A DNA stretch of 64,000 nt, from the NCBI RefSeq assembly GCF_003934165.1, contig NZ_RKST01000007.1, forward strand, positions 1-64,000, given 5' to 3'. A program made the position numbers and the translations under genes. Position 1 is the first letter of the stretch, and every line of letters begins with the position of its first letter. The stretch is from Borborobacter arsenicus (GTDB lineage Bacteria; Pseudomonadota; Alphaproteobacteria; Rhizobiales; Rhizobiaceae). The notes beneath the pieces are model-generated. The model made no database searches, had not been told where the DNA came from, and was given only the letters and a program-made list of their open reading frames with translations. This document shows positions 28,871 through 52,019 of the stretch, piece after piece.

Positions 28871-28957
28871 AGACTGCAGGCGGCGGCCCCGACAGAACAA
28901 GAGGGGCATTCGCTTGACGTAACGTAAGCGAACATTGAAAAAATGGAGGAGAATTCA

Positions 28958-29983
28958 ATGAAGAGATTTCTGGTCAGCCTGAGTCTGTTGGCGACGGCCT
29001 TTGCCGCAACGCCCTCAAGTGCCCAGGAGAAGCTGATTGTCAGCACTTGGGGCGGCAATTGGAAGGACGGGGCAGGCATTATCGCCAAGGAATTCACCAA
29101 GCGGACCGGCATGGAAGTGGAATTCATCACCGGTGGCACGCTCGACCGCCTGGCTAAGGCCAAGGTCGCCAAGGACAATCCGGAATCGGACGTCACCTAC
29201 ACCACCTCGCATGTCGGCTATCTCTACCAGTCCGATGGGCTGTTCGAAAAACTCGACATGAGCAAGATCCCGAATGCCGCCGACCTCTATGCGGCCGGAG
29301 ATCGTGGTGGATATGAGATGGGCGTTTACTCCTATGTCTATACGCCGGCCTTTCGCACGGATCTGATGCCGGAAGGCTTCAAGGTCGATTCCTGGAAAGT
29401 GCTCTGGGACAAGAGCATGGAGGGCAAGCTGGGTCTGCCCGATTTCGACCCCAGCCATATCGTGATCGCGTCGTCGATCATGGAGGGCAAGACGCCGTCC
29501 GACTGGGAGAGCATCACGGACAAGCTCGAAGCCTTGAAGCCGAGTATCAAGGCATTCTACCAGTCCGATGCAACAAGCCAGGACCTGATCCGCACGGGCG
29601 AGACGCCGGTGCAGGTGCTGCTTTCGATCAACGGATATCACCTGATCGAGCAGGGTGTGCCGGTCGAGATCGACATCCCCAGTGAAGGTGCCGTGGTCGG
29701 CATCGGCGCGCTCGGCATCAATGCCGGCACCAAGAAGCTGGATGCTGCCCACGAATTCATCAATGTCGCGCTCGACCCGGCCATTCAGGAGCAACTCTGC
29801 GAGTTCCACAAATGCTCGCCGATGAACCAGAAGGCAAAGGTTTCCCCCGAACTCGCCAAGCTGCCGGGCATCTTCACCACGCCGGAGCAGTGGGAAAAGC
29901 AGGCGATCGTTCTCGACGACGAGACCTACGCCAAGCTACTTCCACTGTGGAAGATCTGGTTCACCGAAAACATGATGCAGTAA
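28958..29983 (+). CDS. PotD-type ABC transporter binding protein
   Basis: Periplasmic binding protein of 341 residues. A Sec signal peptide covers about residues 1-22 (MKRFLVSLSLLATAFAATPS, cleavage near SSAQ). The mature start EKLIVSTWGGNWKDGAG is typical of the PotD/AfuA group. The start is set at 28958 behind TGGAGGAGAATTCA; an ATG at 28943 overlaps that site. First gene of the importer 28958-32841. The ligand is unknown; the downstream monooxygenase group suggests a small aromatic or amine compound. Confidence 0.87.
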   Translation: MKRFLVSLSLLATAFAATPSSAQEKLIVSTWGGNWKDGAGIIAKEFTKRTGMEVEFITGGTLDRLAKAKVAKDNPESDVTYTTSHVGYLYQSDGLFEKLDMSKIPNAADLYAAGDRGGYEMGVYSYVYTPAFRTDLMPEGFKVDSWKVLWDKSMEGKLGLPDFDPSHIVIASSIMEGKTPSDWESITDKLEALKPSIKAFYQSDATSQDLIRTGETPVQVLLSINGYHLIEQGVPVEIDIPSEGAVVGIGALGINAGTKKLDAAHEFINVALDPAIQEQLCEFHKCSPMNQKAKVSPELAKLPGIFTTPEQWEKQAIVLDDETYAKLLPLWKIWFTENMMQ

Positions 29984-30004
29984 TCAACAACCGTAAAACA
30001 GGGT

Positions 30005-30026
30005 GGGCGGCGTCATAGCGCCGCCC
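30005..30026 (+). terminator. Hairpin between binding-protein and permease genes
   Basis: GGGCGGCG (30005-30012) pairs perfectly with CGCCGCCC (30019-30026) around a 6-base loop, ending one base before the permease ATG at 30028. It would shield the binding-protein message and also limit translation of the permease, which has no visible ribosome-binding site. Confidence 0.6.
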
Positions 30027-30027
30027 G

Positions 30028-30891
30028 ATGACGATGACGCAACAGCGCCCGTTCTTCATTCCTTTCCTGGTGCCGGCGGTCCTCGTGGCGGTGATCTTTG
30101 CCGCGGCGATGTTCAATGTCTTCCAGTACAGCTTCCTCGAATTCGTTCCAGGCTCGGTCGAAGTCGGAGGTTTTACCCTCGACAATTTTGCCCGCATCAA
30201 CCGACCCATTTACTATTGGGTGCTGCTCGACACTTTCCTGCTGAGCTTTGCCACAGCCTTTTTTGCCTTGGTGCTGAGCTATCCGATCGCCTTTGCTGTG
30301 GTGCGCGCGGAAAGGAACTGGGTACGCTCTGTGCTTGTGGTGCTGGCGATTACGCCGCTCTTCACCGGCGAGATCGTGCGCACCTATTCCTGGATGCTCG
30401 TGCTTGGCACCGACGGTGTCATCAATACAACTTTGAAGGCACTCGGTCTCATCGAGGGTTCCATACCGATCATGTACACGCGCCCGGGCGTCGTCATTGC
30501 GCTCGTGCAGTTTGCCATGCCGGTAATGATCATCCTGCTTGCCACCGCCATCAGCCAGGTCAAGCGCGATTGCGAAAAGGCGGCGGCCAATCTTGGTGCC
30601 ACGCCCAATACGGTGTTCTGGCGAGTGACCATTCCCCTGACGATGCCCGGCATTCTTTCCAGCTTCGTCGTCGTGTTCGCCTGGACGATGAGCGCCTTTT
30701 CCACGCCGCAACTGATCGGTGGGGGCAAGGTTCTGATGATCTCGAACGTCGTCTATCTGCAGGGGTTCTCCTCGTTCAATCTGCCCTTTGCCGCAGTGCT
30801 CAGTCTTATTGCACTGGGAGCGGCTCTTGGTAGCCTGGGCCTGATGAAGCTTGCGACCGCGCGTTTTGAACGCAAACTGGCAACAGTATGA
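30028..30891 (+). CDS. PotB-type ABC permease
   Basis: Inner-membrane permease of 287 residues with about six membrane segments (first at FIPFLVPAVLVAVIFAAAMF). The EAA loop is EKAAANLGATPNTVFWRVTI. Two in-frame ATG codons (30028 and 30034) sit directly behind the hairpin. It forms the membrane dimer with the next gene product, whose start overlaps its stop. Confidence 0.87.
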   Translation: MTMTQQRPFFIPFLVPAVLVAVIFAAAMFNVFQYSFLEFVPGSVEVGGFTLDNFARINRPIYYWVLLDTFLLSFATAFFALVLSYPIAFAVVRAERNWVRSVLVVLAITPLFTGEIVRTYSWMLVLGTDGVINTTLKALGLIEGSIPIMYTRPGVVIALVQFAMPVMIILLATAISQVKRDCEKAAANLGATPNTVFWRVTIPLTMPGILSSFVVVFAWTMSAFSTPQLIGGGKVLMISNVVYLQGFSSFNLPFAAVLSLIALGAALGSLGLMKLATARFERKLATV

Positions 30892-31697
30892 GCAGGAGCA
30901 CCAACATGCGAAGCGTCCTGTTTTGGTCTGCCGTCGTCCTTATCCTTGTCTATATGACCCTGCCGGCCGTGGTCGTGGTGGCAACGTCGGTGAACCCGAC
31001 TGAACTCATGGCCTTCCCGCCGACCGGCTTTTCCCTGCGCTGGTACGAAAAGGCGCTGACCTATCCCGATTTCCAGGAGGCGTTCAAATCCAGCCTGGTC
31101 GTCATGGCCTTGTCTTCGACACTGGCGACACTGCTCGGGTCGAGCTTTGCCTTCCTGATCTTTCACTACAAGTTCCGCGGCCGCGGCCTGCTTGAGGCAG
31201 CGCTCTGGTCGCCGCTGATCATCCCGCACTTCACCACCGGCTTCGGCTTTCTTCTATTGGGCAGCCATTTGAGCCTGACGCAAGGCTATGCCGTGATCGT
31301 CATGGCTCACCTTCTGCTGGTGACGCCGTTCGTGACGCGGGCAGTGTTTGTGTCGCTGAGCAATGTGGACACGAATTATGCCCGTGCTGCTGCCAATCTT
31401 GGCGCGACGCCGAGCGAGGTGTTGTTCAAGATCACGATCCCGCTGGTGCTGCCCGGCATGATCGGAGGCTGGCTCATCGCTGCGATCCTCTCGCTGACCG
31501 AGTTCACAGCATCGCTTTATGTCACCGCAAGCCGCACCCAGACCCTGCCTGTCGCCATGTACAACTACATTCGCGAATATGCGGACCCGACCATCTCGGC
31601 GATCTCGGCACTGCTTATCCTGTCCACCACGATCATCATGATCGTTGCCAATCATTTCCTCGGTCTTCGTCGTATTCTCGGAATCGACAACGGCTGA
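30888..31697 (+). CDS. PotC-type ABC permease
   Basis: Second permease, 269 residues, about six membrane segments; the PPTGFSLRWYEKAL loop after segment 1 and the EAA loop ARAAANLGATPSEVLFKITI mark the PotC type. The ATG at 30888 overlaps the previous stop (ATGA); the ATG at 30906 has AGGAGCACCAAC upstream and would give 263 residues. Either start leaves the first membrane segment intact. Confidence 0.87.
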   Translation: MSRSTNMRSVLFWSAVVLILVYMTLPAVVVVATSVNPTELMAFPPTGFSLRWYEKALTYPDFQEAFKSSLVVMALSSTLATLLGSSFAFLIFHYKFRGRGLLEAALWSPLIIPHFTTGFGFLLLGSHLSLTQGYAVIVMAHLLLVTPFVTRAVFVSLSNVDTNYARAAANLGATPSEVLFKITIPLVLPGMIGGWLIAAILSLTEFTASLYVTASRTQTLPVAMYNYIREYADPTISAISALLILSTTIIMIVANHFLGLRRILGIDNG

Positions 31698-31719
31698 TGC
31701 ACCAAGAGGTTTTCTACTC

Positions 31720-32841
31720 ATGATCCATCAGAAAATGACCGCGCTCCAGCCTGACGATTGTGCTGTCGAGATCAACCATGTCAGCCGCGTGTTCGGCTCG
31801 GTCCAGGCCGTCAACGATGTGTCGCTTTCCATCCGGACAGGTGAATTCATCACCCTGCTGGGGCCGAGTGGCTGCGGCAAGACGACCTTGCTCAACATGG
31901 TTGCCGGCTTCATCAATCCGAGTTCGGGTGCGATCCGCATCGGCGGTAAGGATGTCACCAATGTGCCGGTGCATCTGCGCGACACTGGCATGGTTTTTCA
32001 AAGCTATGCGCTGTTTCCGCACATGAACGTCTTCGACAATGTCGCCTTTGGCCTGCGCCAGCGGAAATTTACGAAAGCCGATATTTCGAGCAAGGTCATG
32101 CAGGCGATCGAGATGATGAGTCTCTCCGGCATGGAGCACCGCCGCATCTCGCAGCTCTCGGGCGGTCAGCAGCAGCGCGTCGCTCTGGCGCGCGCCATCG
32201 TGATCAAGCCCAAGGTGCTGCTGCTCGATGAACCCTTGTCGGCTCTCGACAAGAGCCTGCGCGCCCAGATGCAGGTCGAACTCATTGAGCTGCATCGAAA
32301 CACCGGCCTGACGACGATTTTCGTCACCCATGATCAAGGTGAGGCCTTGAGCCTGTCGGATCGCATCGTGGTGATGAACCGTGGGCAGATCCAGCAGGTG
32401 GCAGAGCCGATCGATCTCTATCGCAATCCGGCGAATGGATTCGTCGCTTCGTTCATTGGCGAAATCAACGCCTTGCCGCCGGCCACATGCACCGTTGCGA
32501 GTGATGAAATTTCGCTTGATATAGGCAATATTCGGTTGATTGCTCCACGTCGCCCGGAGTGGCAATTCGCTTCAGGTCAGTCCGCAAAGGCATTCGTCAG
32601 GCCCGAACACATCCGCATCGCCACACCTGCGGATGGCGGGCGCAATGTCGTGACCGGCGAAGTTCTGACCCACATCTATCAAGGCTCGCACACGATCACC
32701 CGGCTGAATGTCGATGGTCTCGGTCCGATAGAGATGCGGCTTCCGGGCGGTGATGTTGTCGGGCGTGTTCCAGTCGGCCTGAAGGCTGACATCGCAATCA
32801 ATCTTGCCGAAGTCGTTCTTCTTTCCAACACCGCGAACTGA
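31720..32841 (+). CDS. PotA-type ABC transporter ATPase
   Basis: ATPase of 373 residues. Walker A GPSGCGKTT, Q-loop GMVFQSYALFPHMN, signature [15 protein letters not shown], Walker B LLLDEPLSALD and switch His in FVTHDQGEA are present, with a C-terminal TOBE region from about 260. The start at 31720 follows CAAGAGGTTTTC; ATG 31735 is an alternative. It completes the importer beginning at 28958. Confidence 0.9.
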   Translation: MIHQKMTALQPDDCAVEINHVSRVFGSVQAVNDVSLSIRTGEFITLLGPSGCGKTTLLNMVAGFINPSSGAIRIGGKDVTNVPVHLRDTGMVFQSYALFPHMNVFDNVAFGLRQRKFTKADISSKVMQAIEMMSLSGMEHRRISQLSGGQQQRVALARAIVIKPKVLLLDEPLSALDKSLRAQMQVELIELHRNTGLTTIFVTHDQGEALSLSDRIVVMNRGQIQQVAEPIDLYRNPANGFVASFIGEINALPPATCTVASDEISLDIGNIRLIAPRRPEWQFASGQSAKAFVRPEHIRIATPADGGRNVVTGEVLTHIYQGSHTITRLNVDGLGPIEMRLPGGDVVGRVPVGLKADIAINLAEVVLLSNTAN

Positions 32842-32929: not shown

Positions 32930-33499
32930 ATGCTCCTTACTTCGGAAGACTATCGAAAGACGCCCTGGAAAAACGGTGGCGGCATTACCGAGGACGTATT
33001 GCTGCTGCCACAAGGCAGCTCGCATGAGGATTTCGATATCCGCATCAGCCGTGCGCCGATCGTCGACGAGTCTCGCTTTTCCGTTTTTCCGGGCATCGAC
33101 CGCACGATCACCCGGCTTGGCGAAAATCCGCTGACGCTTTGCTTTTCCGATGGACAGGAAACCGAGCTTCCCTATCTGTGGCCTCTCAGCTTCGACAGTG
33201 CGCTGGCGCCCAGCTCCCGTCTGCCTGCCGGCGCATCCCGGGTCATGAATGTGATGACGCGGCGCGGCCGCTGGCAGGCTCATGTTTGCGTGCTCCGCGG
33301 ACCCGCCCGGGAAAAGCGAGACGTACCGCCGGGCGGAATGATTGTCGCGCACGCAGCAAAAAGCGGCTGCCGGGTGTCTGGCATTCAGGTCGGCGAGGGG
33401 CAGACATTGATCGTGGACGATATGCTGGATGTGTTGATTGCAACAGATGCAGGCAGCGCCTGCCTGGTCGCAGCGATCTCCCCGGAAAGCGCCAGATAG
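32930..33499 (+). CDS. HutD/Ves-family cupin protein
   Basis: Cytoplasmic protein of 189 residues. The hallmark TPWKNGGGITED is at residues 12-23, with DIRISRAPIVDESRFSVFPG following; both are characteristic of the HutD/Ves double-cupin family. HutD proteins occur in histidine-utilisation operons and have been proposed to limit flux or bind a small amide such as formylglutamate, but no enzyme activity is established. Here no hut enzyme genes are near, so the link is with the 27935-32841 importer group. The start is at 32930; a GTG immediately upstream at 32927 is possible. No strong ribosome-binding site. Confidence 0.8.
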   Translation: MLLTSEDYRKTPWKNGGGITEDVLLLPQGSSHEDFDIRISRAPIVDESRFSVFPGIDRTITRLGENPLTLCFSDGQETELPYLWPLSFDSALAPSSRLPAGASRVMNVMTRRGRWQAHVCVLRGPAREKRDVPPGGMIVAHAAKSGCRVSGIQVGEGQTLIVDDMLDVLIATDAGSACLVAAISPESAR

Positions 33500-33581: not shown

Positions 33582-34517
33582 ATGAACATGATGGTCGCCA
33601 TTCAAGAAGCGTTTTCTCTATCACTGGACCCCAGCAGGTCCATGGACCTGCTGGCGCGCGCCATGAATGACATCGGAAAATCTTGTCATCGTGTCGCCGC
33701 CGGTCACGAACTCCAGCTTCTGACCGACTCTGCGGTGGTCCCTAAGCGGCTGAAGGGAAGCGTCATGCTTCTCGGCAATTTCGACGGGTTCCATTGTGGG
33801 CACCAGGCGCTGTTGGCAGCCGCGCGGGCCGAGGCCTCGGCATGCGGTGCACCGCTTGGTGTCATGTCGGTCGAGCCGCATCCCAAACAGCTTTTCGCAC
33901 CGCATTCCGAACCGTTTCGGCTGTCCTCGCCCACCACGAAAAGAGAAACCTTCAGCCGCCTTGGCCTCGATTTCCTCTATAGTCCCCGCTTCAATCGCGC
34001 CTTTGCCGGCCAGGAGCCCGAACAGTTCATCGACGATATCCTGGTCGGTGGACTGGCTGTCTCGAGAATTGTCGTCGGGCGCGGTTTCAGGTTCGGCAAG
34101 CAGCGGCGCGGCGATGTGGACCTGCTGTGCCGGTTTGGCGAGCAAAGCGGTTTTGCCGTGACCGCTGTCGATGAGCTTGGCCAGGACGGCGCCAAGTATT
34201 CATCTACGCTGGTGCGCAATCACCTGGCGGCCGGAGAGATCGATGCTGCCAATGCCCTGCTTGGCGGTCCGTGGAGCGTGGAACTCGGCGCCTTGCCTGG
34301 ATCGCTGCGATTGCCTGGTGAAGGGTCGGTTAGCTGGCCGGTATCGGTGCTGAAGCCTGCTTGCGGTGAGTACCGGGTGATGGCGCGGCAGGCTGAAACC
34401 GAGATGAGTTCTTTGGGCACTCTTGCGATTTCGCCGACGACAACAAGCCTTACGTTGCAATCTTCCGGGAATCTCGCATCGGCCCCACTCATTGTCGACT
34501 TCCTCGGCAGGGCATGA
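33582..34517 (+). CDS. RibF-like FAD synthetase (FMN adenylyltransferase) without riboflavin kinase domain
   Basis: Nucleotidyltransferase of 311 residues. The adenylyltransferase signature MLLGNFDGFHCGHQALL is at about residues 62-78, FIDDILVGGLAVSRIVVGRG and FRFGKQRRGD follow, and the domain ends with YSSTLVRNHLAAGEIDAANA, as in RibF proteins. The C-terminal riboflavin-kinase domain, whose GxxLGFPTAN-type loop should come next, is not recognisable; only about 90 diverged residues remain. It would convert FMN and ATP to FAD but not phosphorylate riboflavin. It precedes an FADH2-dependent monooxygenase system, so dedicated FAD supply is a reasonable inference. The start codon is uncertain: no clear ribosome-binding site before ATG 33582. 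Confidence 0.72.
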   Translation: MNMMVAIQEAFSLSLDPSRSMDLLARAMNDIGKSCHRVAAGHELQLLTDSAVVPKRLKGSVMLLGNFDGFHCGHQALLAAARAEASACGAPLGVMSVEPHPKQLFAPHSEPFRLSSPTTKRETFSRLGLDFLYSPRFNRAFAGQEPEQFIDDILVGGLAVSRIVVGRGFRFGKQRRGDVDLLCRFGEQSGFAVTAVDELGQDGAKYSSTLVRNHLAAGEIDAANALLGGPWSVELGALPGSLRLPGEGSVSWPVSVLKPACGEYRVMARQAETEMSSLGTLAISPTTTSLTLQSSGNLASAPLIVDFLGRA

Positions 34518-34665
34518 AATTCCAGTGTCCTTCAAGGATCGTAAAACTCGATCCAAAGACACGAGCAATATTATTTTACAGTTGCAGTCCGGTGGCCGGA
34601 TATTTCGACGCAAATGCATTGTGTCGGCCTGGTTGTCATGGCCGGCACGCCAGCCGGAGGAAGCC

Positions 34666-35088
34666 ATGACGACCAGGCCCGTATTGAAACTCACGCATGC
34701 CGGAGCGTTGAAGGCGCTCGCGAGTGCGGTCGAAAAGGCTGAGTCACTTGGTGTTCCCCAGAACATCACGATTGTCGATGACGGCGGCAATCTGCTGGCT
34801 TTTGTAAGAATGGACGGCGCGAAGCTGCTGTCGCGCGAAACGTCCATGTCGAAGGCCATTACGGCTGCCTCGCACCGCCAGCCGACCTCTAGGCTCGATC
34901 CGAACTATGAAATCAAGCTCGCTATCGCCGGCGGCGGCCGGCTGACCAATCTGGAAGGCGGGCTGCCGATCGTCATCGAGGGGCAGTGTGTCGGTGCCGT
35001 CGGCGTCGGGTCGGGTACGGGCGCGCAGGATGTCGAAGTGGCGCGCGCGGCTCTCGCCGGCGTCGGTGCCGAAGACCAGAAGCCCTGA
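34666..35088 (+). CDS. GlcG/HbpS-family protein (DUF336)
   Basis: Small protein of 140 residues. Typical blocks: LTHAGALKALASAVEKAESL, ITIVDDGGNLLAFVRMDGA, and GGLPIVIEGQCVGAVGVGSG. HbpS binds haem and GlcG accompanies glycolate oxidase; many homologues occur as accessory genes in aromatic and amine catabolic operons, without a settled activity. The start at 34666 follows CGGAGGAAGCC. There is no signal peptide, so it is cytoplasmic. It belongs to the same-strand group 33582-39694. Confidence 0.82.
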   Translation: MTTRPVLKLTHAGALKALASAVEKAESLGVPQNITIVDDGGNLLAFVRMDGAKLLSRETSMSKAITAASHRQPTSRLDPNYEIKLAIAGGGRLTNLEGGLPIVIEGQCVGAVGVGSGTGAQDVEVARAALAGVGAEDQKP

Positions 35089-35206
35089 CGGAAAATCACC
35101 TGCGGACGCGGTGCTCCGCATGGTTCGATCATCGCTCTTAATCGAGACCCGCCGCCGACCTTTGGCCGTTGCCTGGGACTCTCTTCAAACAATTGCGGGT
35201 ACTGTC

Positions 35207-35830
35207 TTGAAGCTTTTTTACGCACCCACGTCTCCCTATGTCCGCAAGGTAATGGCGGTGGCGCATGAAACCGATCTTGTAGATGAGATCGAATTGCTGT
35301 TCAGCGGCACCACCCCTCTGGCTGGTGACAAGGAACTGAGATCTTTCAATCCGTTAGGTAAGATTCCTGCACTGGTTACGGATGAGGCGGGCTGTCTGTT
35401 CGACAGCAGGGTAATTTGTGAATATCTAGCGGCAAAAGGCGGAAACAAAAAACTTTTCCCGCCTGACGGGCCATCGCGGTGGGAGGTGCTTGCGCAGCAG
35501 GCTCTGGGTGATGGCCTTCTTGATGCGGCACTGCTGGCCCGATACGAGATCATGATGCGGCCGGAAAACCAGCGCAGCGGCGAATGGCGTGCCGCCCAGC
35601 TGCAAAAGGTCACGACGGCGCTCGACCGCATTGAGGCCCTGCTGCCGACGGTCGGAGACACGGTTACGATCGGTACGATCACCTTCGGCTGTGCGCTTGG
35701 CTATCTCGATTTCCGCTTTCCCGAACTGGAATGGCACAAGAATCGTCCCGTCGCCGAGCGCTGGTTCGGCGAATTTGATGAACGTCCCGCAATGGCGGCG
35801 ACCCGGCCTCGAGAACATGTGCCGGCGTGA
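35207..35830 (+). CDS. Glutathione S-transferase family protein
   Basis: Protein of about 207 residues with a thioredoxin-like N-terminal domain (LKLFYAPTSPYVRKVMAVAH, LRSFNPLGKIPALVTDEAGC, FDSRVICEYLA with the Glu-Ser-type glutathione contact as Asp-Ser) and an all-helical C-terminal domain. I place the start at TTG 35207 because the fold begins there and no ATG or GTG is available nearby; the ribosome-binding site is weak. In a monooxygenase operon it may conjugate or isomerise a reactive ring-opened product, as maleylpyruvate isomerases and detoxifying GSTs do. The activity is unknown. Confidence 0.78.
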   Translation: MKLFYAPTSPYVRKVMAVAHETDLVDEIELLFSGTTPLAGDKELRSFNPLGKIPALVTDEAGCLFDSRVICEYLAAKGGNKKLFPPDGPSRWEVLAQQALGDGLLDAALLARYEIMMRPENQRSGEWRAAQLQKVTTALDRIEALLPTVGDTVTIGTITFGCALGYLDFRFPELEWHKNRPVAERWFGEFDERPAMAATRPREHVPA

Positions 35831-35859
35831 GCAACGACAGACAACGCGTGTGAGCAGGG

Positions 35860-36309
35860 ATGGTGGACAAATTGCATATCGAAGTTCTGAATGGGCCGAA
35901 CACCAATCTCTATGGGCTCGATCCGAACGGCCCCTACGGAAAGCTTACCCTTGCCGACATAGAAGAGCGTTGCCGGGCCAAGGCGGAGACGCTGGGTGCG
36001 ACAGTCCGCTTTCGCCAGTCCAGTGCGGAAGGCGAACTGATCGACTGGATTCATCAGGCGCGCGGCAAGGCCGACGGCATCGTCATCAATGGTGGCAGCC
36101 TTTCCTACACCTCCATCGGGCTGATGGACGCCTTGGCGAGCTTTGGCGGCCCGAGTTTTCAGGTTCACGTCAGCAACGTCTTCAAGCGCGAAGCAATCCG
36201 CCATCACTCGCCAATCTCGCAGGCCGTGGCCGGCTGCCTGATCGGATTGGGCGCGAGGGGTTACGAATTTGCCGTCGAGGCCGTCATTCGGACCTTGCGC
36301 GAAGATTGA
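35860..36309 (+). CDS. Type II dehydroquinase-like protein lacking the catalytic arginine
   Basis: AroQ-fold protein of 149 residues, normal length for the dodecameric type II 3-dehydroquinate dehydratase. Conserved: NGPN at 11-14, Tyr26 (PYGKLTL), Asn77 (VINGGS), His103 (QVHVSNVF) and Arg114 (EAIRHHSPIS). Not conserved: the Arg that normally precedes the active-site lid tyrosine (RREPxxYG) is Asp21 in GLDPNGPYG, and NPGAYTHTS is NGGSLSYTS. In characterised enzymes that Arg is essential, so a housekeeping shikimate role is unlikely. It lies 29 bases after the GST gene in the unexplained monooxygenase group and probably acts on a different cyclic hydroxy acid. Confidence 0.78.
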   Translation: MVDKLHIEVLNGPNTNLYGLDPNGPYGKLTLADIEERCRAKAETLGATVRFRQSSAEGELIDWIHQARGKADGIVINGGSLSYTSIGLMDALASFGGPSFQVHVSNVFKREAIRHHSPISQAVAGCLIGLGARGYEFAVEAVIRTLRED

Positions 36310-36404
36310 AATCGGCTGGATCGGAAATCCTGATCTTAGAAATCTCTAAGATTTATTATACAAAAGAAGCTTTTTGCCGCACTAATTCAGACAGCGAGTA
36401 GTCA

Positions 36405-36992
36405 ATGAGCAAGTCGCGAGGTCCGAAGATGTCGACCCTTGAAGCAACCTCCCAAGTATTGCCCCCTTTCACGGCTGTTACAACTGCGATTCCGACGGTT
36501 GATCGGGCAGCATTCGTCTCGGCCATGAGCGGAGCCGTCACCAGTGTCAATGTCGTTACTACAGACGGTACTGGCGGTATGTTCGGCGTTACGGTCAGTG
36601 CGATGGCTTCAGTGTCGGCAGATCCGCCGATGCTTCTGGTCTGCGTCAACCAGCGCAGCCCCGCTTGCGCAGCGATCAGGGAGAACGGCGTATTTTGCGT
36701 CAATCTCCTGGCAGCCAACCAGCATGACATTTCCGATGTTTTTGCCGGGCATCCGCGCGAGGGTGAGGCGTTTGATTTCGGTTGCGCGGAATGGCAGGCG
36801 ACCACTACCGGCGCGGTTCGCCTGCCGGGCGCTGCCAGCACCTTCGATTGCGTCCTCCATAGCAGCCAGGATGCTGGAACGCATACGATCTTCGTCGGCC
36901 GGGTGGTGGATGTGACCGCCACCGAGAGTGCCCCGCTGGCTCATTGCCGCCGCACTTATTGTCATCCGGCCGCGCTGCCGATGACCAATTGA
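36405..36992 (+). CDS. Flavin reductase, HpaC-like (small component of two-component monooxygenase)
   Basis: NAD(P)H:flavin oxidoreductase of 195 residues. The split-barrel flavin-binding pattern is clear: GVTVSAMASVSADPPMLLVC, with the Ser-rich turn contacting FMN/FAD, then VNLLAANQHDISDVFAGHPR and the terminal GTHTIFVGRVVDV in place of GDHxxFxG. It makes free reduced flavin for the oxygenase encoded next. The ATG at 36405 is used; ATG 36429 (MSTLEATS) has a better ribosome-binding site (GCGAGGTCC) and may be the true start. About 45 bases separate it from the oxygenase gene. Confidence 0.87.
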   Translation: MSKSRGPKMSTLEATSQVLPPFTAVTTAIPTVDRAAFVSAMSGAVTSVNVVTTDGTGGMFGVTVSAMASVSADPPMLLVCVNQRSPACAAIRENGVFCVNLLAANQHDISDVFAGHPREGEAFDFGCAEWQATTTGAVRLPGAASTFDCVLHSSQDAGTHTIFVGRVVDVTATESAPLAHCRRTYCHPAALPMTN

Positions 36993-37037
36993 GCGAGTTT
37001 TCCAGAACTATGAAGTTATCTAACGGAAGGCATTTCA

Positions 37038-38510
37038 ATGATTAGAACCGGTAACCAATATCGGGATTCGATCCGGGATGGCCGGCGGGTTTGGATTAAT
37101 GGCGAGCGTGTCAAGGACGTCACGGCTCACCCGATGTTCAAGCCCATCGTCGATATCCGGGCTCGCATTTATGACATGGCGCATGACGCGCAATACAGCT
37201 CGATCATGAGCTATGAAGAGGGCGGCGAGCGTTTCGCCGTCGGGCTCAAGCTGCCGCATACGCAGCAGGATTGGCACGACAAGCGCCTCGCCACCGACAC
37301 TGTGCTCGATGAGGTCAAGGGCATTGTCACCCGCGTCGGCGACGAGACCGTCGGTGAAATGTGGTCGCTGTTCGACGGCCGCGACATGTTGAACGAAGTC
37401 GATCCGCGCTTTGCCGAAAATATCGAGCGGCATATCAACACAGTGCTGCGCAACGATCCGTTCCACGTGTCGGCCAATACCGATCCGAAGGGCGATCGCT
37501 CCAAGCGTCCGCAGGACCAGGACCCAGACATGCTTTTGCATGTGGTCAAGGAAACGGATGCAGGCATCATCGTTCGCGGCGCGAAATATGAGACGGCTGC
37601 GGCCTATGCCAACCAGGCCTTCACCAAGCCGACGATCGCAAACTGGGGCGACGAGAAGCTGTCGGACTATGCGGTTGGTTTCGTCTGCGACTTCTCTTCG
37701 CCGAACCTTCGCTTCATCGCCCGCACCGGCTTTGCAGGGCGCGCCCCGGCGGAGGATTACCCGTTGTCGAACCGCGTCGACGAAGTGGATACGCTGGTTA
37801 TCTATGACAATGTGCTGATCCCTTGGGAGAACGTGCTGTTCTACCAGTACACCAAGGCCGCGCAGTTCATCCGCTCGACGCTGCACCGCTATTCCGCATT
37901 TGCCTTCGTTCAGCGCAACCTGAAGCTTGCCGATCTGATGATCGGTGCAGCACTTTGGAACGTGCGCCAGACGGGTCTGGAAAAGCAGCCTGCGGTTCAG
38001 GAAAAGCTTGCGCAGCTCGCCTGCTACCGCGAGGGCATCAATGCCCATCTGACGGCTGCGATCGCCAATGCCGAGCCCAGCCCGGCGGGCCTTCTGATGC
38101 CGAACCAGTCGCTGCTGATGACCGGTCGCGTGCTTGCCTGCTCGCAGTTGCACAACATGATGCACCTGGCGCGCGAACTGTGTGGCGGCCAGATCTGTAT
38201 CACGCCGGACGTCGCCAGCTTCCGTGATCCGGAGGCGGGCCCGTGGCTGAACAAATACTACACGCTGAATGACAATTGGCAGGCCGAGGACCGGCGCAAG
38301 CTTCTGGCCTTCGCGCGCGACCTACTGAACTCCGACTATGCGGGGCATCGCGTCACTTTCCAGCTCTTCGCGCAGGCCCCGCCCTTTGCGCATCTGGCGG
38401 CGGTCTACAACAACTTTGACTGGAGCGAGCCGCTTCGCTTCACCAAGGAATCTGCCGGACTGTCCGATCGCATCTATGGCACGCAAAAGGCGCCGGCCGT
38501 AGCGAAGTGA
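37038..38510 (+). CDS. HpaB-family FADH2-dependent monooxygenase
   Basis: Oxygenase component of 490 residues, class D flavin monooxygenase with the acyl-CoA-dehydrogenase-like fold. It resembles 4-hydroxyphenylacetate 3-hydroxylase and pyrrole-2-carboxylate oxygenase: the N-terminal TGNQYRDSIRDGRRVWINGE is the family opening, HVVKETDAGIIVRGAKYETA and NRVDEVDTLVIYDNVLIPWE form the flavin and substrate region, and LCGGQICITPDVASF is the C-terminal block. It uses reduced flavin from the 36405 product and O2 to hydroxylate an aromatic or heteroaromatic ring. GGAAGGCATTTCA precedes the start. The substrate cannot be read from sequence; the neighbours are not those of 4-hydroxyphenylacetate (homoprotocatechuate) operons. 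Confidence 0.88.
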   Translation: MIRTGNQYRDSIRDGRRVWINGERVKDVTAHPMFKPIVDIRARIYDMAHDAQYSSIMSYEEGGERFAVGLKLPHTQQDWHDKRLATDTVLDEVKGIVTRVGDETVGEMWSLFDGRDMLNEVDPRFAENIERHINTVLRNDPFHVSANTDPKGDRSKRPQDQDPDMLLHVVKETDAGIIVRGAKYETAAAYANQAFTKPTIANWGDEKLSDYAVGFVCDFSSPNLRFIARTGFAGRAPAEDYPLSNRVDEVDTLVIYDNVLIPWENVLFYQYTKAAQFIRSTLHRYSAFAFVQRNLKLADLMIGAALWNVRQTGLEKQPAVQEKLAQLACYREGINAHLTAAIANAEPSPAGLLMPNQSLLMTGRVLACSQLHNMMHLARELCGGQICITPDVASFRDPEAGPWLNKYYTLNDNWQAEDRRKLLAFARDLLNSDYAGHRVTFQLFAQAPPFAHLAAVYNNFDWSEPLRFTKESAGLSDRIYGTQKAPAVAK

Positions 38511-38580
38511 CCCCCCTTGCCTGTGCGTGCTGTTCCCTGTCGGCCGCACAGGCGATTTTTCTCAGTGAAAGAACCAGTTC

Positions 38581-39000
38581 ATGATCCACAAGCGTCTTCG
38601 CCCGTTCAACACCCGTGAGACCTACCCAGAGCAGAAGCTCGATAATGACCTGTCCCAAGGCGTGGTGGCCCGCGGCACGATGGTCTTCCTGCGAGGGCAG
38701 GTTTCCCAGGACCTCGAAACCCGTGAGTGCCTGCATGTGGGCGATGCCGGTGCGCAGACGGCCAAGACCATGGCAAACATCAAGATGCTGCTGGAAGAAG
38801 CTGGCAGCGAGATGGCTCATATCTGCCGCATCGTCGTTTATGTCACCGACATCCGCTACCGCGAGGCCGTCTACCAGGAGATGGGCAAGTGGCTCAAGGG
38901 TGTGTTTCCCTGCTCCACCGGCCTGGTGGTTCCGGCCCTCGCGCGGCCGGAATGGGTCGTGGAGATCGAGGTGACGGCCGTCATCCCCGACGCAGCTTGA
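38581..39000 (+). CDS. RidA/YjgF-family protein lacking the active-site arginine
   Basis: Small protein of 139 residues of the Rid superfamily, which in RidA hydrolyses reactive imine/enamine intermediates. The typical blocks GTMVFLRGQVSQD, TAKTMANIKMLLEEAGSEMA and WVVEIEVTAVIP are present. The Arg of the PARS motif is replaced (FPCSTGLVVPAL), so it belongs to a Rid subgroup without deaminase chemistry, often found in catabolic operons. RutC, a Rid protein beside a flavin monooxygenase in uracil breakdown, is a comparable pairing. It starts 71 bases after the oxygenase and is followed by DUF1028. Confidence 0.85.
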   Translation: MIHKRLRPFNTRETYPEQKLDNDLSQGVVARGTMVFLRGQVSQDLETRECLHVGDAGAQTAKTMANIKMLLEEAGSEMAHICRIVVYVTDIRYREAVYQEMGKWLKGVFPCSTGLVVPALARPEWVVEIEVTAVIPDAA

Positions 39001-39016
39001 TTGGAGGCTTGGCGAC

Positions 39017-39694
39017 GTGACCTTCTCGATTTCCGCACGCTGCGCAAGGACTGGCATGTTCGGAATTGCCGTCTCGTCCTCCAGCCCGTGCGTTGCCGCG
39101 CGCTGTGCCCATGCAAGGGCAGGCGCCGGCGTGGTGGCCACACAGAACATAACCGATCCGACACTCGGACCGCGCGGGCTTGACCTGATGGCTTCCGGAT
39201 TGAGCGCAAGCGAGGCGCTTGAGCGCATCAAATCAGAAGCCAAGCATATAGAGTATCGACAGCTGGCGTTGGTTGACAGCAATGGCAATGGTGCGGCTTT
39301 CTCCGGTGCCAATACGCTTGGCACCCACCGTACAGTCATTCAGCCCAATGTCGTGGCGGCAGGCAATCTGCTGTCCAGTCCGGTGGTGCCGGAAAAAATG
39401 GCGGAAGCCTTCCTGGCCAGTCCGGAAAAGTCGCTCGGCGCCCGCCTGATCCATGCGATGCAGGCGGCGTTGAAGGCCGGCGGCGAGGAGGGCCCCGTTC
39501 ATTCGGTGGGAATGCTCCTCGTGCGTGATGTTGCCTGGCCGGTCGCTGACCTGCGGGTTGATTGGCACGACACCGATCCCATCGGCGAACTCGCCAAGCT
39601 TTGGGAGCTTTGGGAACCCCAGCTTGAGGCCTATGTCTCGCGCGGGATCAATCCCTCGGTCGCTCCCTCCTACGGTGTTCCCGGCGATATGTAG
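39017..39694 (+). CDS. DUF1028 (Ntn-hydrolase-like) protein
   Basis: Protein of 225 residues. The start TFSISARCARTGMFGIAVSS, then AGAGVVATQNITDPTLGPRG, and VDSNGNGAAFSGANT are the DUF1028 signature; the family is predicted to have an Ntn-hydrolase fold with a nucleophile exposed near the N-terminus, and its reaction is not established. GTG at 39017 is the start, behind TTGGAGGC. DUF1028 and Rid genes are often neighbours, which suggests a shared nitrogen-containing intermediate. Last gene of the 33582-39694 group. Confidence 0.83.
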   Translation: MTFSISARCARTGMFGIAVSSSSPCVAARCAHARAGAGVVATQNITDPTLGPRGLDLMASGLSASEALERIKSEAKHIEYRQLALVDSNGNGAAFSGANTLGTHRTVIQPNVVAAGNLLSSPVVPEKMAEAFLASPEKSLGARLIHAMQAALKAGGEEGPVHSVGMLLVRDVAWPVADLRVDWHDTDPIGELAKLWELWEPQLEAYVSRGINPSVAPSYGVPGDM

Positions 39695-39842: not shown

Positions 39843-40769
39843 ATGCGATTCACGCTTCGGCAACTCGCCTACTTCGTGGCGGCGGGCGAGGTCGGCGGTG
39901 TCACTCTTGCGTCGGAGCGCATCAATGTTTCTCAGCCTTCGATCTCGGCCGCGATTTCGCAGCTTGAGGCCGAGTTCGGGCTGCAATTGTTCGTGCGCCA
40001 CCACGCGCAAGGTCTTTCGCTAACCCCTGCCGGGCAGCGCGTCATGCAGGCGGCCAAGGCGCTGTTGCGTCAGGCGGAAGAGCTTCACAGCGTCGCCCAG
40101 GAGGTGGCGCAGTCGGTCTCCGGGCCGTTGCATGTGGGTTCCTTCCGCACGCTTTCGCCCATGCTCATTCCTGACCTGTGCAAAACCTTCATGGTCAAGA
40201 ACCCCGCCGTGAGGCTGCAGGTCTGCGAGGAGGATGAGGCCACATTGCTGGCCAAGCTGCGCCGTGCGGAGATCGATCTGGCGCTGACCTATGCCATCCA
40301 TCTGACCGAGGACATCGCCTTCGAGCCATTGGCCGAACTGCCGACTTTCGTTCTGCTGGCGGCCGACAACCCGCTTGCGCAAAAGGAATCGATTGCGCTC
40401 TCGGACCTCGTCGACATGCCTTTCATCCAGCTCGACATGCCGCTGAGCAAGGAATATTTCATCTCGCTCTTCATGATGCAGGGGCTCACGCCGAATATCG
40501 CGGCAAAATCCGAATATCCGGAAACCGTGCGCAGCTTCGTGGCCTCGGGTTTCGGCTATTCCCTGTCTACGGCAAGGCCGTTGAACAAGTCGGCGCTCAC
40601 GGGCAGACCCCTGGCTTATGTGCGTTTGCAGGGGGATCATCCGCCGATGATTCTTGGCATCGCAACACTTGAAGGACTGCGGATGACGCGCGCGGCGGAG
40701 AGTTTTCAACAACATTGCCGGGAACTGATCTCCACCCGCAACCTCCCCGGAATGGCCCCCTGGAACTGA
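39843..40769 (+). CDS. LysR-family transcriptional regulator
   Basis: Regulator of 308 residues, helix-turn-helix at about residues 4-62 (LRQLAYFVAAGEVGGVTLAS, NVSQPSISAAISQLE) and effector domain from about 90. The domain resembles CbbR/CysB-like group members linked to aromatic catabolism. It follows the DUF1028 gene on the same strand, not divergent, so it may be part of the operon or read separately. The start at 39843 (MRFTLRQL) is chosen because the fold begins there; upstream codons add an unstructured leader. Probably controls the monooxygenase group and/or aspA. Confidence 0.87.
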   Translation: MRFTLRQLAYFVAAGEVGGVTLASERINVSQPSISAAISQLEAEFGLQLFVRHHAQGLSLTPAGQRVMQAAKALLRQAEELHSVAQEVAQSVSGPLHVGSFRTLSPMLIPDLCKTFMVKNPAVRLQVCEEDEATLLAKLRRAEIDLALTYAIHLTEDIAFEPLAELPTFVLLAADNPLAQKESIALSDLVDMPFIQLDMPLSKEYFISLFMMQGLTPNIAAKSEYPETVRSFVASGFGYSLSTARPLNKSALTGRPLAYVRLQGDHPPMILGIATLEGLRMTRAAESFQQHCRELISTRNLPGMAPWN

Positions 40770-40900
40770 CCTGCCGCGGCAGGTTCGGTTCCAATGTTCT
40801 CAAACTTTACTTTTTTCGATTGGCATCGCCTCGAAAGCTTTCCTAGACATCTGTCCCGGGAATCGGAGTGCTGCGTGGGGTGCTCCTGAAAGGAGTGACT

Positions 40901-42298
40901 ATGGACATGCAGTTCAGGCGAGAACACGACAGTTTGGGGAGCGTCGACGTGCCCGTCGGTGCCTTGTGGGGGGCGCAGACGGAGCGGGCACGGGGCAACT
41001 TCCGTATCACCGGCATCACCCTCAGCCGCTTTCCGCATCTCATCACCGCCCTGGCGATGACCAAGAAGGCGGCTGCGCGGGCCAATTTGCAATTGGGCGT
41101 GCTGTCCAGCGAAAAATTCGAGGCGATCTGTGCTGCCTGTGATGAGATCATTGCCGGCCGGCATCGCGAGGCGTTTCCTCTCGATGCCATCCAGGGGGGC
41201 GCCGGAACCTCCGTCAACATGAACGCCAATGAGGTCATCGCCAATCTGGCCAATGAGCGCCTGGGCGGCATTCGCGGCGCAAATGCGCCGGTGCACCCCA
41301 ATGATGACGTCAATCGCTCGCAATCCACCAATGACGTCTATCCGACTGCGGTGCGCCTGTCTCTCATTCTGGCGCATGCCGATCTCGGGGCGGCCATAGT
41401 CGCCTTGGCGGATTCCTTTGACGAGCGCGCGAAAGCCTTTGCCGAGACGGTCAAACTTGGCCGTACCCAGCTTCAGGATGCGGTGCCGATGACGCTCGGG
41501 CAGGAGTTCGCTGCCTTTGCCGCCGTATTGCGGGAAGATGTCACTCGGCTGCAAGAGATGCTGCCGCTGCTTGGCGAGGTCAATCTCGGCGGCACTGCGA
41601 TTGGCACCGGTCTGAACGCGCCGAGGGGGTATGCCGAGGTGGCGATTGCCGAATTATCGGCAATCAGCGGCCACAAGCTTACTCGTGCTGCCAACCTGAT
41701 CGAGGCGAGCTGGGACATGGGGGCTTTTGTCCTGTTCTCGGGAATGCTGAAGCGGCTGGCAACGAAGCTCTCCAAGATCTCGAACGATCTGCGCTTGCTT
41801 TCCAGCGGGCCACGTGGCGGGTTGGGTGAGATCCGGTTGCCGGCGGCGCAGCCCGGCTCGTCGATCATGCCCGGAAAGGTCAATCCCGTCATCCCGGAGG
41901 TGGTCAATCAGGTTTGCTTCCAGGTCATCGGGAATGATCTCGCCATCACTTTCGCGGCGGAAGCAGGCCAGCTTCAGCTGAATGCGATGGAGCCGCTTAT
42001 CGCCTTCAACCTGCATTTCTCGATCCAGATGCTGCACGCCGCCATACGGGTTCTCGACGAGGGTTGCGTGCAGGGCGTCGAGGCCGATGCAGCGCGCAGC
42101 CGCGAACATCTGGAGGCAAGTGTGGGCACCGTTACCGCGCTGGTCCCGTTGATCGGCTATGGCCCCAGCGCCGAGCTGGCCAAGGATGCGCTTCGGCTGG
42201 ATCGCAAGATCGCCGATCTTGCCGTGGAGCGAGGACTGGTCACGAGCGAGCAGGCTGCCGAGATGCTCGATCCGATGCTTCTGGCTTTTCCCACCTGA
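40901..42298 (+). CDS. aspA: Aspartate ammonia-lyase (aspartase)
   Basis: Enzyme of 465 residues from the aspartase/fumarase superfamily, converting L-aspartate to fumarate and ammonia. The signature loop reads GSSIMPGKVNPVIPEVVNQV; the PVIPEVVNQV continuation is the aspartase form (fumarase has PTQCEA). GGAGTSVNMNANEVIANLA and HPNDDVNRSQSTND are the other conserved blocks. The ATG at 40901 follows GAAAGGAGTGACT. It lies between the LysR gene and a quinone oxidoreductase; aspartate or a substituted aspartate may be an end product of the adjacent pathway. A close relative acting on another amino acid cannot be excluded. Confidence 0.88.
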   Translation: MDMQFRREHDSLGSVDVPVGALWGAQTERARGNFRITGITLSRFPHLITALAMTKKAAARANLQLGVLSSEKFEAICAACDEIIAGRHREAFPLDAIQGGAGTSVNMNANEVIANLANERLGGIRGANAPVHPNDDVNRSQSTNDVYPTAVRLSLILAHADLGAAIVALADSFDERAKAFAETVKLGRTQLQDAVPMTLGQEFAAFAAVLREDVTRLQEMLPLLGEVNLGGTAIGTGLNAPRGYAEVAIAELSAISGHKLTRAANLIEASWDMGAFVLFSGMLKRLATKLSKISNDLRLLSSGPRGGLGEIRLPAAQPGSSIMPGKVNPVIPEVVNQVCFQVIGNDLAITFAAEAGQLQLNAMEPLIAFNLHFSIQMLHAAIRVLDEGCVQGVEADAARSREHLEASVGTVTALVPLIGYGPSAELAKDALRLDRKIADLAVERGLVTSEQAAEMLDPMLLAFPT

Positions 42299-42438: not shown

Positions 42439-43437
42439 ATGACTTTGCCCGAGACGATGAAGGCGGTGGTGGCATCGCAACCCGGCGGCCCTGAAGTGCT
42501 GCGGCTGGTGGAACGGCCGGTGCCGCAACCCGGGGCAGGGGAGGTGTTGGTTCGCGTCGCCGCCGCGGGGGTCAATCGGCCTGACATCATGCAAAGGCGC
42601 GGTGCCATCGCTGTGCCGGCCGGCGTCACCGACATTCTGGGCCTGGAAATAGCCGGCGAAATCGTAGCCGTCGGTCCGGGCGTCGATGGCGTGGCCGTCG
42701 GGCGGCAGGTCGCGGCGCTGGTATCGGGCGGCGGCTATGGCGAATATTGCCTTGCTCAGGCCGGCCATTGTCTGGCGATTCCTGCCGGAATGGACCATGT
42801 CGCCGCTGCAGCACTTCCCGAAGCGGCGTTTACCGTCTGGCATAATCTCTTCGAACGTGGACGTCTCGCACCCGGCGAAAGGGTCCTGATCCATGGCGGT
42901 GCCAGCGGCATCGGCTCATTGGCGATACAGCTTGCGCGCGCTATCGGAGCCACTGTCGTTGCAACCGCGGGAGGGGTTGAGAAAGTCGCTTTCCTGCGTG
43001 AACTCGGCGCCGATATCGCCATCGACTACCGCAGCCAGGACTTCGTCGAGGTCTGTCGCGGCGCCTTGGGCGAAGCTGGCGTCGACGTGGTCCTGGATAT
43101 TGTCGGTGGAAGCTATATTGCGCGTAATTTCGCCGTCATGGCGCCTGGTGGCCGGCATGTCAGCATCGCTTTCATGGAAGGTGCGGTCGTTCCGATCGAT
43201 CTGACGGCGGTAATGGTGAAGGGGCTCACGCTGACGTCCTCCACCATGCGGCCCAAACCCGTTGAGGAAAAGACCCGGTTGGCGCGCGCGGTGGAGCGCC
43301 ATGTCTGGCCGCTGGTCAGCAAAGGGCGGGTCAGGCCGCCTGTTTTCCGAACCTATATGCTGGAGGAAGCCACGCAGGCGCACTGCCTGATGGAAGAAAA
43401 TGGCAATATGGGGAAAATAATCCTAAATATATATTGA
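42439..43437 (+). CDS. Zinc-independent quinone oxidoreductase (PIG3-type MDR)
   Basis: NADPH-dependent medium-chain reductase of 332 residues. The opening MKAVVASQPGGPEVLRLVER, GVNRPDIMQRRGAIAVPAG and the cofactor-binding LIHGGASGIGSLAIQLARA match the quinone oxidoreductase PIG3/TP53I3 group. Zinc ligands are absent. Likely substrates are quinones or enones, which could arise from the neighbouring monooxygenase. It ends right at the border of an AT-rich segment; its last codons (ATAATCCTAAATATATAT) are already AT-rich, so the extreme C-terminus may be altered. Confidence 0.85.
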   Translation: MTLPETMKAVVASQPGGPEVLRLVERPVPQPGAGEVLVRVAAAGVNRPDIMQRRGAIAVPAGVTDILGLEIAGEIVAVGPGVDGVAVGRQVAALVSGGGYGEYCLAQAGHCLAIPAGMDHVAAAALPEAAFTVWHNLFERGRLAPGERVLIHGGASGIGSLAIQLARAIGATVVATAGGVEKVAFLRELGADIAIDYRSQDFVEVCRGALGEAGVDVVLDIVGGSYIARNFAVMAPGGRHVSIAFMEGAVVPIDLTAVMVKGLTLTSSTMRPKPVEEKTRLARAVERHVWPLVSKGRVRPPVFRTYMLEEATQAHCLMEENGNMGKIILNIY

Positions 43438-45150: not shown

Positions 45151-45178
45151 TCAGCAAAACATCGGGAGGAGAATAACA

Positions 45179-46177: not shown

Positions 46178-46182
46178 CGATT

Positions 46183-46216
46183 CGACCGGAGCGCGCGGTC
46201 CTGCGTGCTCCGGTCG
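46183..46216 (+). terminator. Hairpin between dctP and dctQ
   Basis: CGACCGGAGC (46183-46192) pairs perfectly with GCTCCGGTCG (46207-46216), with an inner CGC/GCG stem, six bases after the dctP stop. It probably protects the dctP message or limits read-through into the membrane genes. Confidence 0.6.
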
Positions 46217-46282
46217 TCCCCACGCGGCCACACTCTTGGAGGGGAGGGGCCAGGCACTGCAAATGAAATCGGGAGGATTTCC

Positions 46283-48168: not shown

Positions 48169-48204
48169 GAAACGATTGCCGTATTTGAGGCATATCAAGC
48201 AAGT

Positions 48205-48234
48205 TGGCCGGCCGGGAATTGACCCGGTCGGCCA
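48205..48234 (+). terminator. Long hairpin after the TRAP operon
   Basis: TGGCCGGCCGGG (48205-48216) pairs with CCCGGTCGGCCA (48223-48234) over 12 bases with one G-T wobble, 6-base loop, 37 bases after the dctM stop. There is no T-run, but it is the strongest structure before the next gene. Confidence 0.5.
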
Positions 48235-48312
48235 GCGCCGTGGAAGGGGGCCGGTGAGGTTGTGTTCCCGGCTCTTTGGCAACCGCACCAAGGCCAGGCA
48301 ATGAGGAATGGC

Positions 48313-49482: not shown

Positions 49483-49589
49483 CGGCCCATGCGTCATTGC
49501 CTCGCGGTGGCTGAGACCCTAGCGCATCACAAGGTGCTGAGCTCTTTTCTCGAAAATGTGGATCAGGAGGGTCTTGAGCACGGCTCTGT

Positions 49590-49610
49590 CATCCTAATAT
49601 ATTAATCTGT
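49590..49610. promoter_or_regulatory. Probable hexuronate-regulon operator, copy 1
   Basis: TAATATATTA, a perfect palindrome (49595-49604), within CTAATATATTAATCTG, about 50 bases before the altronate-dehydratase start. The same element occurs at 52024-52033, and a one-change version at 55072-55081. Probably bound by the GntR protein encoded at 51240-51992. Confidence 0.65.
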
Positions 49611-49655
49611 CCAAGGCTGATATTTTTGCCTGACTTCATTACGAAGGCTCAAACA

Positions 49656-51185: not shown

Positions 51186-51239
51186 CCGGCCCGGCCTGCT
51201 GCATCGCATAGGGCGCGATGCCCCTGCCAGACCGGAAGT

Positions 51240-51992: not shown

Positions 51993-52019
51993 CAATTCTC
52001 CACCGCAAGGCCAGTTGAC

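Follow-up and report, generated by a model that had tools for sequence, protein, structure and literature searches.

A probable imidazole-4-acetate degradation cluster in Borborobacter arsenicus with an HpaB-type oxygenase in place of HinF

An oxygenase cluster and its conserved neighborhood

The DNA analyzed here (the window) is a stretch of 64,000 nucleotides from Borborobacter arsenicus (contig NZ_RKST01000007.1, positions 1 to 64,000), contig 5 of a 5.4-Mb genome that is 98.5% complete. Positions 33582 to 39694 hold eight genes on one strand, among them one for an HpaB-family oxygenase, and, judged from gene families and order, the core of this cluster is most likely a variant of the known hin pathway for imidazole-4-acetate (ImAA), a product of histamine breakdown, differing from it in the oxygenase. 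An earlier note on this DNA had placed the eight genes in named families, and all eight indeed scored above the gathering cut-offs of the corresponding Pfam families (FAD_syn, HbpS-like, GST_N/GST_C_2, DHquinase_II, Flavin_Reduct, HpaB_N plus HpaB, Ribonuc_L-PSP (Rid), and DUF1028; Table 1). Its proposal of an FADH2-dependent oxygenase equipped with its own reductase, FAD synthetase, and Rid protein was supported, the substrate probably being an N-heteroaromatic ring. Flanking genes, which it thought might belong, do belong: a reductase, the solute-binding protein and ATPase of an importer, a LysR regulator, an aspartase, and a quinone reductase were confirmed by Pfam or NCBIfam, the aspartase and LysR being putative hin counterparts and the importer and reductases parts of an accessory module. 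Two further genes, for a HutD-family protein and an M20 deacylase, were added. Two of the names needed adjustment. The "RibF-type" FAD synthetase matched the FAD_syn domain alone (residues 55-209), with no riboflavin kinase family reported by Pfam, and the "HpaC" flavin reductase is a Flavin_Reduct protein that scored higher against RutF (126 bits, cut-off 255) than against HpaC (102 bits, cut-off 206), below the cut-off in both cases.

A scan of one genome per species returned 335 stretches related to the oxygenase gene, and the 80 best loci were retained; these were 75-93% identical to the query (nearest were proteins of Aminobacter, 93%, and Mesorhizobium, 90%), and are therefore biased toward close relatives and not independent. 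The earlier note had suggested comparing gene order across genomes, and the neighborhood proved to be conserved. By tblastn, on which all neighbor counts rest, Rid was found near 79 of the 80 HpaB genes, DUF1028 near 72, LysR near 60 (61 with a HinK-type query), flavin reductase near 57, and M20 near 41, and the linkage of Rid and DUF1028 to HpaB exceeds chance. Less frequent were FAD synthetase (15), HutD (13), histamine dehydrogenase (12), class III aminotransferase (10), Rieske oxygenase (9), aldehyde dehydrogenase (ALDH; 6), aspartase (6), and HinF type (3). Glutathione S-transferase (GST; 2), the AroQ-like protein (3), HbpS (2, both Aminobacter), quinone reductase (2), and GhrA (2) were rare; GST, AroQ-like, and HbpS, which had been counted as part of the set, were accordingly dropped as core genes. 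Since the loci extended at most 9 kb per side and 30 of the 80 were under 19 kb, distant cluster members were undercounted. HpaB was placed by a greedy open reading frame (ORF) caller in 68/94 loci and by a codon-weighted caller in 90/93, and one locus without called genes (L221) was retained through tblastn.

Table 1. Genes of the cluster and its surroundings in the window; all listed genes lie on the + strand
Feature	Position	Strand	Match or basis
GhrA-like 2-hydroxyacid dehydrogenase, accessory module	27935..28870	+	PRK15469 218 bits, under its cut-off of 403
PotABCD-type ABC importer (solute-binding protein, two permeases, ATPase), accessory module	28943..32841	+	solute-binding protein and ATPase by NCBIfam
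Two permeases of the PotABCD-type importer	30028-31697	+	ORFs and annotated Aminobacter homologue cluster
HutD-family protein	~32930..33499 (start inferred from translation)	+	PF05962 112.6 bits
FAD synthetase domain protein, proposed FAD supply	33582..34517	+	FAD_syn 150 bits
HbpS/GlcG-like protein	34666..35088 (start inferred)	+	PF03928 117 bits
GST, accessory module	35204..35830 (start inferred)	+	GST_N_3 57 bits
AroQ-like protein, altered active-site loop, accessory module	35860..36309	+	DHquinase_II 148-149 bits
Flavin reductase (RutF/HpaC-like), proposed FADH2 supplier	36405..36992	+	Flavin_Reduct 133 bits
HpaB-family oxygenase, proposed ImAA monooxygenase replacing HinF	37038..38510	+	HpaB_N 271 bits, HpaB 195 bits
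Rid protein, putative HinL counterpart	38581..39000	+	Ribonuc_L-PSP 65 bits
DUF1028 protein, putative HinH counterpart	39017..39694	+	DUF1028 222 bits
LysR regulator, HinK-like	39843..40769	+	best solved relatives 3fzv/6m5f, 193 bits
Aspartate ammonia-lyase, putative HinI counterpart	40868..42298	+	NF008909 663 bits, above cut-off of 510
PIG3-type quinone reductase, accessory module	42439..43437	+	TIGR02824 437 bits
M20 deacylase, putative HinG counterpart	48262..49482	+	single own-genome match to Aminobacter-cluster M20

Hin counterparts and exchange of the oxygenase

In Pseudomonas putida U, according to the available parts of PMC6467879 and PMC8231116, the hin pathway comprises the FAD-monooxygenase HinF (EC 1.14.13.5), the enamine deaminase HinL, the amidases HinH and HinG (the latter EC 3.5.1.8), the aspartase HinI, the aminotransferase HinC, and the aldehyde dehydrogenase HinD; hinFLHG forms an operon, PA5390 (hinG) is listed as a probable peptidic bond hydrolase, and HinK is a LysR regulator responding to ImAA. 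The remark in the earlier note that its author knew no described pathway with this gene set was not supported, as the Rid, DUF1028, M20, aspartase, and LysR genes of the window match the pathway described in these parts, and they are predicted to correspond to HinL, HinH, HinG, HinI, and HinK, respectively. The window also shares the series of Rid and DUF1028 behind the oxygenase. It differs in having HpaB and a flavin reductase (plus FAD synthetase and HutD) rather than a single-component FAD monooxygenase, in having an extra accessory module and no close HinC or HinD type, and in that M20 is set apart from the other genes.

Several further matches bear on this correspondence. Two Pseudomonas loci (L036 and L037) carry HpaB-Rid-DUF1028-M20, with functions ordered as in hinFLHG, and the window DUF1028 protein was at least 50% identical to Pseudomonas copies located between Rid and M20 in several regions. 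Among solved structures, the window LysR matched 3fzv/6m5f best, the next match scoring 91 bits, and the LysR beside a Pseudomonas HinF-type operon (L138) scored 600 bits against 6m5f and 598 bits against 3fzv; we take these structures to be HinK of P. aeruginosa. The M20 protein was the sole match in its own genome, at E<=1e-20, to the M20 protein of the Aminobacter cluster (52% identity), and it shared 80% identity with the M20 protein of a HinF-type cluster (L206) in G108, a genome of the same genus as that of the window. Finally, the histamine dehydrogenase (HADH) found in 12/80 HpaB loci is a flavoprotein of 700 residues, one representative of which scored 1052 bits against histamine dehydrogenase 6de6 and 953 bits against 3k30, the others of the set being at least 63% identical to this representative. 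HADH or a class III aminotransferase stood near 22 of the 80 HpaB genes.

A DUF1028 protein was detected at E<=1e-20 in 104 of 149 genomes of the genus Pseudomonas, whereas window-type HpaB, at E<=1e-100, was present in 2 of 298. The idea that HpaB is HinF itself was dropped on these counts, and HpaB is probably a different protein. In 12 of 16 Pseudomonas regions, a single-component FMO-like flavoprotein of ~436 residues (with Pfam matches to Pyr_redox_3 and FMO-like, and 74 bits to its best solved match) stood ahead of Rid, DUF1028, and M20 in series, and this protein is taken as HinF below. In three of the 104 DUF1028-positive genomes the matches were only 37-40% identical, and some of the others were not hin operons: in L136 and L141, DUF1028 and M20 are next to an ABC transporter, Rid and both oxygenases are missing, and the HinH-HinG pair may there serve a third purpose. 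A 39% identical DUF1028 protein also stood in another context in L148.

Comparison of HpaB and HinF loci showed that the two-component HpaB oxygenase replaces single-component HinF in otherwise identical operons. Locus L208 (genome G106) reads HpaB-Rid-DUF1028-ALDH-LysR-M20-HADH and L211 (G155) reads HinF-Rid-DUF1028-ALDH-LysR-M20-HADH, with M20 on the opposite strand in both. No HinF match at E<=1e-60 was found in G106, or in the window genome among the best 8 of 24 candidates scored, where HpaB is present instead; the genus-mate G108 carries the HinF type. Across 199 genomes of the family, the window genome included, and with at most 8 first-look candidates for HinF scored per genome, a close HinH (at least 51% identity) was found in 23. 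Fifteen of these had HinF only, five had both oxygenases (G011, G097, G163, G171, and G184), three had HpaB only (the window genome, G106, and G114), and none had neither. This survey left out G133, with a HinH-like match of 42%, and HinF-like matches of 36-41%, which were counted as paralogues and were the only ones in 17 of the 38 family genomes with any HinF-like match. One genome, G165, had the HinF type without HinH.

Trees of the partner proteins pointed the same way. In the tree of HinH (107 rows, quick search), loci of the HpaB and HinF types were interleaved, requiring nine changes with the rows carrying both oxygenases left out; the HpaB group required 12 changes, of which starred branches forced at least 7, and for the HinF group the figures were 10 and at least 6. 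The HinL tree (117 rows, few columns) likewise gave nine changes between HpaB and HinF, with 13 for the HpaB group (at least 6 forced) and 10 for the HinF group (at least 5 forced). Tree labels refer to the fetched locus and not to the genome; L217 is labeled HpaB, yet HinF lies ~27 kb away in G097. The Pseudomonas HpaB loci L036 and L037 were placed inside the Pseudomonas HinF clade of the HinH tree. The ALDH of L036 was 87% identical to that of L037, and its LysR was 85% identical to that of HinF-type L138, while the L037 ALDH was 73-77% identical to the ALDHs of HinF-type L135, L138, L140, and L142.

The genes around HinH differed with the oxygenase. Within 6 kb of HinH, tblastn detected a flavin reductase in 52/73 HpaB-only loci versus 0/25 HinF-only loci (Fisher p 5e-11), an FAD synthetase in 15/73 versus 0/25 (p 0.01), and HutD in 14/73 versus 0/25 (p 0.02), p values that are optimistic, the loci being related to one another; eight of 81 HpaB-only loci had no DUF1028 match and were excluded. 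These counts indicate that reductase, FAD synthetase, and HutD accompany the two-component oxygenase. On a plasmid of Bacillus badius (L095:11402-21683), the genes for flavin reductase, HpaB (55%), FAD synthetase, Rid, and DUF1028 precede those for permeases, a class II histone deacetylase-like protein, a class III aminotransferase, and an ALDH; the HpaB type is thus present in Bacillota too.

Proposed route and competing explanations

We consider it probable (about 0.72) that the cluster converts ImAA to fumarate along the hin route, the place of HinF being taken by a two-component monooxygenase of the HpaB type. Gene family, order, and context underlie this reading, and the substrate and individual reactions are deduced from them. 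The flavin reductase would supply FADH2 to HpaB, which would hydroxylate the imidazole ring of ImAA; opening of the ring product and its deacylation to aspartate would fall to Rid, DUF1028, and M20, and the aspartase would convert the aspartate to fumarate, with the HinK-like LysR presumably sensing ImAA.

A number of observations weigh against this route. The window genome had no close HADH (best 30%) and no close HinC-type aminotransferase (best 43%), and no HinD-type ALDH was found at a strict E<=1e-120, distant ALDHs not being sought. The M20 gene is not adjacent to that of the HinH counterpart and lies 5-6 kb past the quinone reductase, beyond a TRAP/enolase gene set. HinF was assigned from gene order and product names. 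One Pseudomonas locus (L146) carries Rid-DUF1028-M20 with a HinK-like LysR, an ALDH, and an aminotransferase and had neither oxygenase in 11 kb; a third oxygenase type was not seen among its called genes, of which the first residues were inspected without a family search. Lastly, both oxygenases occurred together in 8 loci and, within the family, in 5 of the 8 genomes with HpaB.

This co-occurrence would be odd if HpaB and HinF catalyzed the same step, and it leaves room for different substrates. HpaB could instead act on a related imidazole, e.g., N-methylated imidazoleacetate or a later intermediate, sharing only the lower hin enzymes. Near 9/80 HpaB genes (e.g., L081:3337-4491) stands a GbcA-like Rieske oxygenase, which may N-demethylate methylated imidazoles and would suit such a substrate. 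However, the exchange of HpaB for HinF in L208 and L211 took place in otherwise identical operons with histamine dehydrogenase and ALDH, and G106 had no HinF match at the threshold used, so that we regard a related imidazole as an unlikely substrate.

Database annotation makes HpaB an ordinary phenol ortho-hydroxylase of the 4-hydroxyphenylacetate type, in line with its HpaB_N and HpaB domains and with its nearest solved relative, 4-hydroxyphenylacetate 3-hydroxylase of Thermus thermophilus. The earlier note would have taken as refuting its reading a tight clustering with a characterized enzyme whose operon has the same genes, and on this the outcome is divided: at 192 bits, HpaB is not tightly clustered with this or another characterized enzyme, but its partner genes do match a characterized operon. 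Fold family and two-component design are common to the window enzyme and the HpaB/HpaC 4-hydroxyphenylacetate 3-monooxygenase, but the score was half of the HpaB-1 equivalog cut-off of NCBIfam (239 versus 480 bits; 152 versus 885 for HpaB-2). The key residues of the T. thermophilus enzyme are Arg100, Tyr104, and His142, as given in the available part of PMC10816480. In 93/93 aligned HpaB sequences (the window and 92 loci), Arg100 was kept as Arg99, while Tyr104 was replaced by Glu103 and His142 by Ser145, residues that might suit an imidazole better than a phenol. As chlorophenol-type members of the family also deviated at the Tyr104 and His142 positions in alignments, these changes argue against 4-hydroxyphenylacetate activity more than for imidazole. 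Furthermore, the conserved partners in the 80 loci are Rid, DUF1028, and M20, with no phenol-pathway genes among them, and phenol hydroxylation is therefore very improbable. The Rut uracil pathway resembles the window in having Rid beside a flavin monooxygenase and in being the best match of the reductase, but the window proteins scored far under the cut-offs (RutF 126/255, RutC 36/169 bits), and the oxygenase is not RutA-like.

Least probable of all is the reading of the earlier note, a separate pathway for another substrate, here one that has borrowed HinL, HinH, and HinG, for while the missing HADH, HinC, and HinD types and the unusual accessory module would agree with it, the HinK-like LysR and the HinG and HinI counterparts are present and three other plasmids combine the module with HinF. 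A homarine or betaine substrate was also considered and dropped, as nothing fitting was found in the literature and the neighbors pointed to histamine.

An HpaB-type imidazoleacetate monooxygenase was not found in the open-access literature, which is weak evidence that none is in print, subscription papers being outside the scope; the words "imidazole" and "histamine" were absent from the available parts of three reviews (PMC6165268, PMC10696468, and PMC10816480), and no literature on DUF1028 was found. If degradation of ImAA through HpaB is correct, a widespread family that carries the annotation 4-hydroxyphenylacetate hydroxylase and is represented by the 335 stretches of the scan would gain a function, imidazoleacetate breakdown would be extended to bacteria without HinF, and two unrelated flavoenzymes would fill one slot in otherwise identical operons.

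The accessory module and surrounding genes

Together with the importer, the AroQ-like, GST, quinone reductase, and GhrA-like proteins make up a second module, which accompanies HpaB in some clusters and HinF in others. Plasmid p4 of Rhizobium bangladeshense (L226/L227) carries AroQ-like, GhrA, a PotABCD-type importer, the HinF type (64%), quinone reductase, GST, Rid, DUF1028, and M20, and the same set was detected by tblastn in unannotated records of Cupriavidus sp. P-10 pMTS1 (L236) and a Variovorax paradoxus SPNA7 plasmid (L237), with HinF types of 63 and 65%. GhrA, parts of the importer, AroQ-like, quinone reductase, GST, Rid, DUF1028, and M20 are thus common to the window and these clusters (GST and quinone reductase in L227, L236, and L237; GhrA in L226, L236, and L237), whereas they have the HinF type (63-65%) where the window has HpaB, reductase, and FAD synthetase. 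A Mesorhizobium locus (L013) had AroQ-like, HutD, and FAD synthetase, with no match for GST, HbpS, or quinone reductase.

Hin-type histamine dehydrogenase, class III aminotransferase, and ALDH were unmatched by tblastn in L091 (Aminobacter MSH1), L226/L227, L236, and L237; an annotated ALDH is cut off at the end of L091. Since the window genome also had no close enzymes of these types, histamine itself may not be the source, and the module is proposed as an alternative upper pathway that may supply ImAA or a close analogue. A wider proposal remains tentative, and we hold it at somewhat less than even odds: that an HpaB-type FADH2-dependent ImAA monooxygenase and HinF have been swapped repeatedly in Proteobacteria, and that the window HpaB is joined to a so far undescribed upper module, composed of the PotABCD-type importer, the GhrA-like and PIG3-type reductases, GST, and an AroQ-like enzyme re-tooled for a new role, which makes ImAA or an analogue from a non-histamine substrate.

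In the AroQ-like proteins of all eight module-linked loci (the window, L011, L012, L013, L091, L226, L236, and L237), the sequence reads NLYGLD and the loop Arg is absent. This Arg ("REP..YG" in relatives), which we presume to have an active-site role in type II 3-dehydroquinate dehydratase, was present in the type II dehydroquinases L228-L231 and in 1d0i. The module-linked proteins have Tyr at the position of a His in L228, L231, and 1d0i and of a Phe in L229 and L230, and a further His ("SNHEG") was lost in the window protein and kept in L237. Because a second dehydroquinase of the genome matched DHquinase_II more strongly (207 bits), the biosynthetic role does not have to fall to the window copy. 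Type II dehydroquinase-like proteins without the loop Arg form a subgroup tied to imidazoleacetate clusters in alpha- and betaproteobacteria (coordinates outside the window, L226:8001-8459, L236:15001-15444, and L237:15001-15435), pointing to a link between imidazole breakdown and an AroQ-like family in which the active site is altered.

Two neighboring gene sets were also observed. Positions 44074-51995, flanking the M20 gene, encode an enolase-superfamily dehydratase, a TRAP transporter (DctP, DctM), a galactarate/altronate dehydratase, and a GntR regulator, resembling a sugar-acid set that may have been inserted between the aspartase and HinG genes. Upstream in the Aminobacter MSH1 cluster (L091:393-4613) lie an arginase/agmatinase-family gene, a second aspartase, and an asparaginase, possibly serving further formimino- or aspartate-handling steps.

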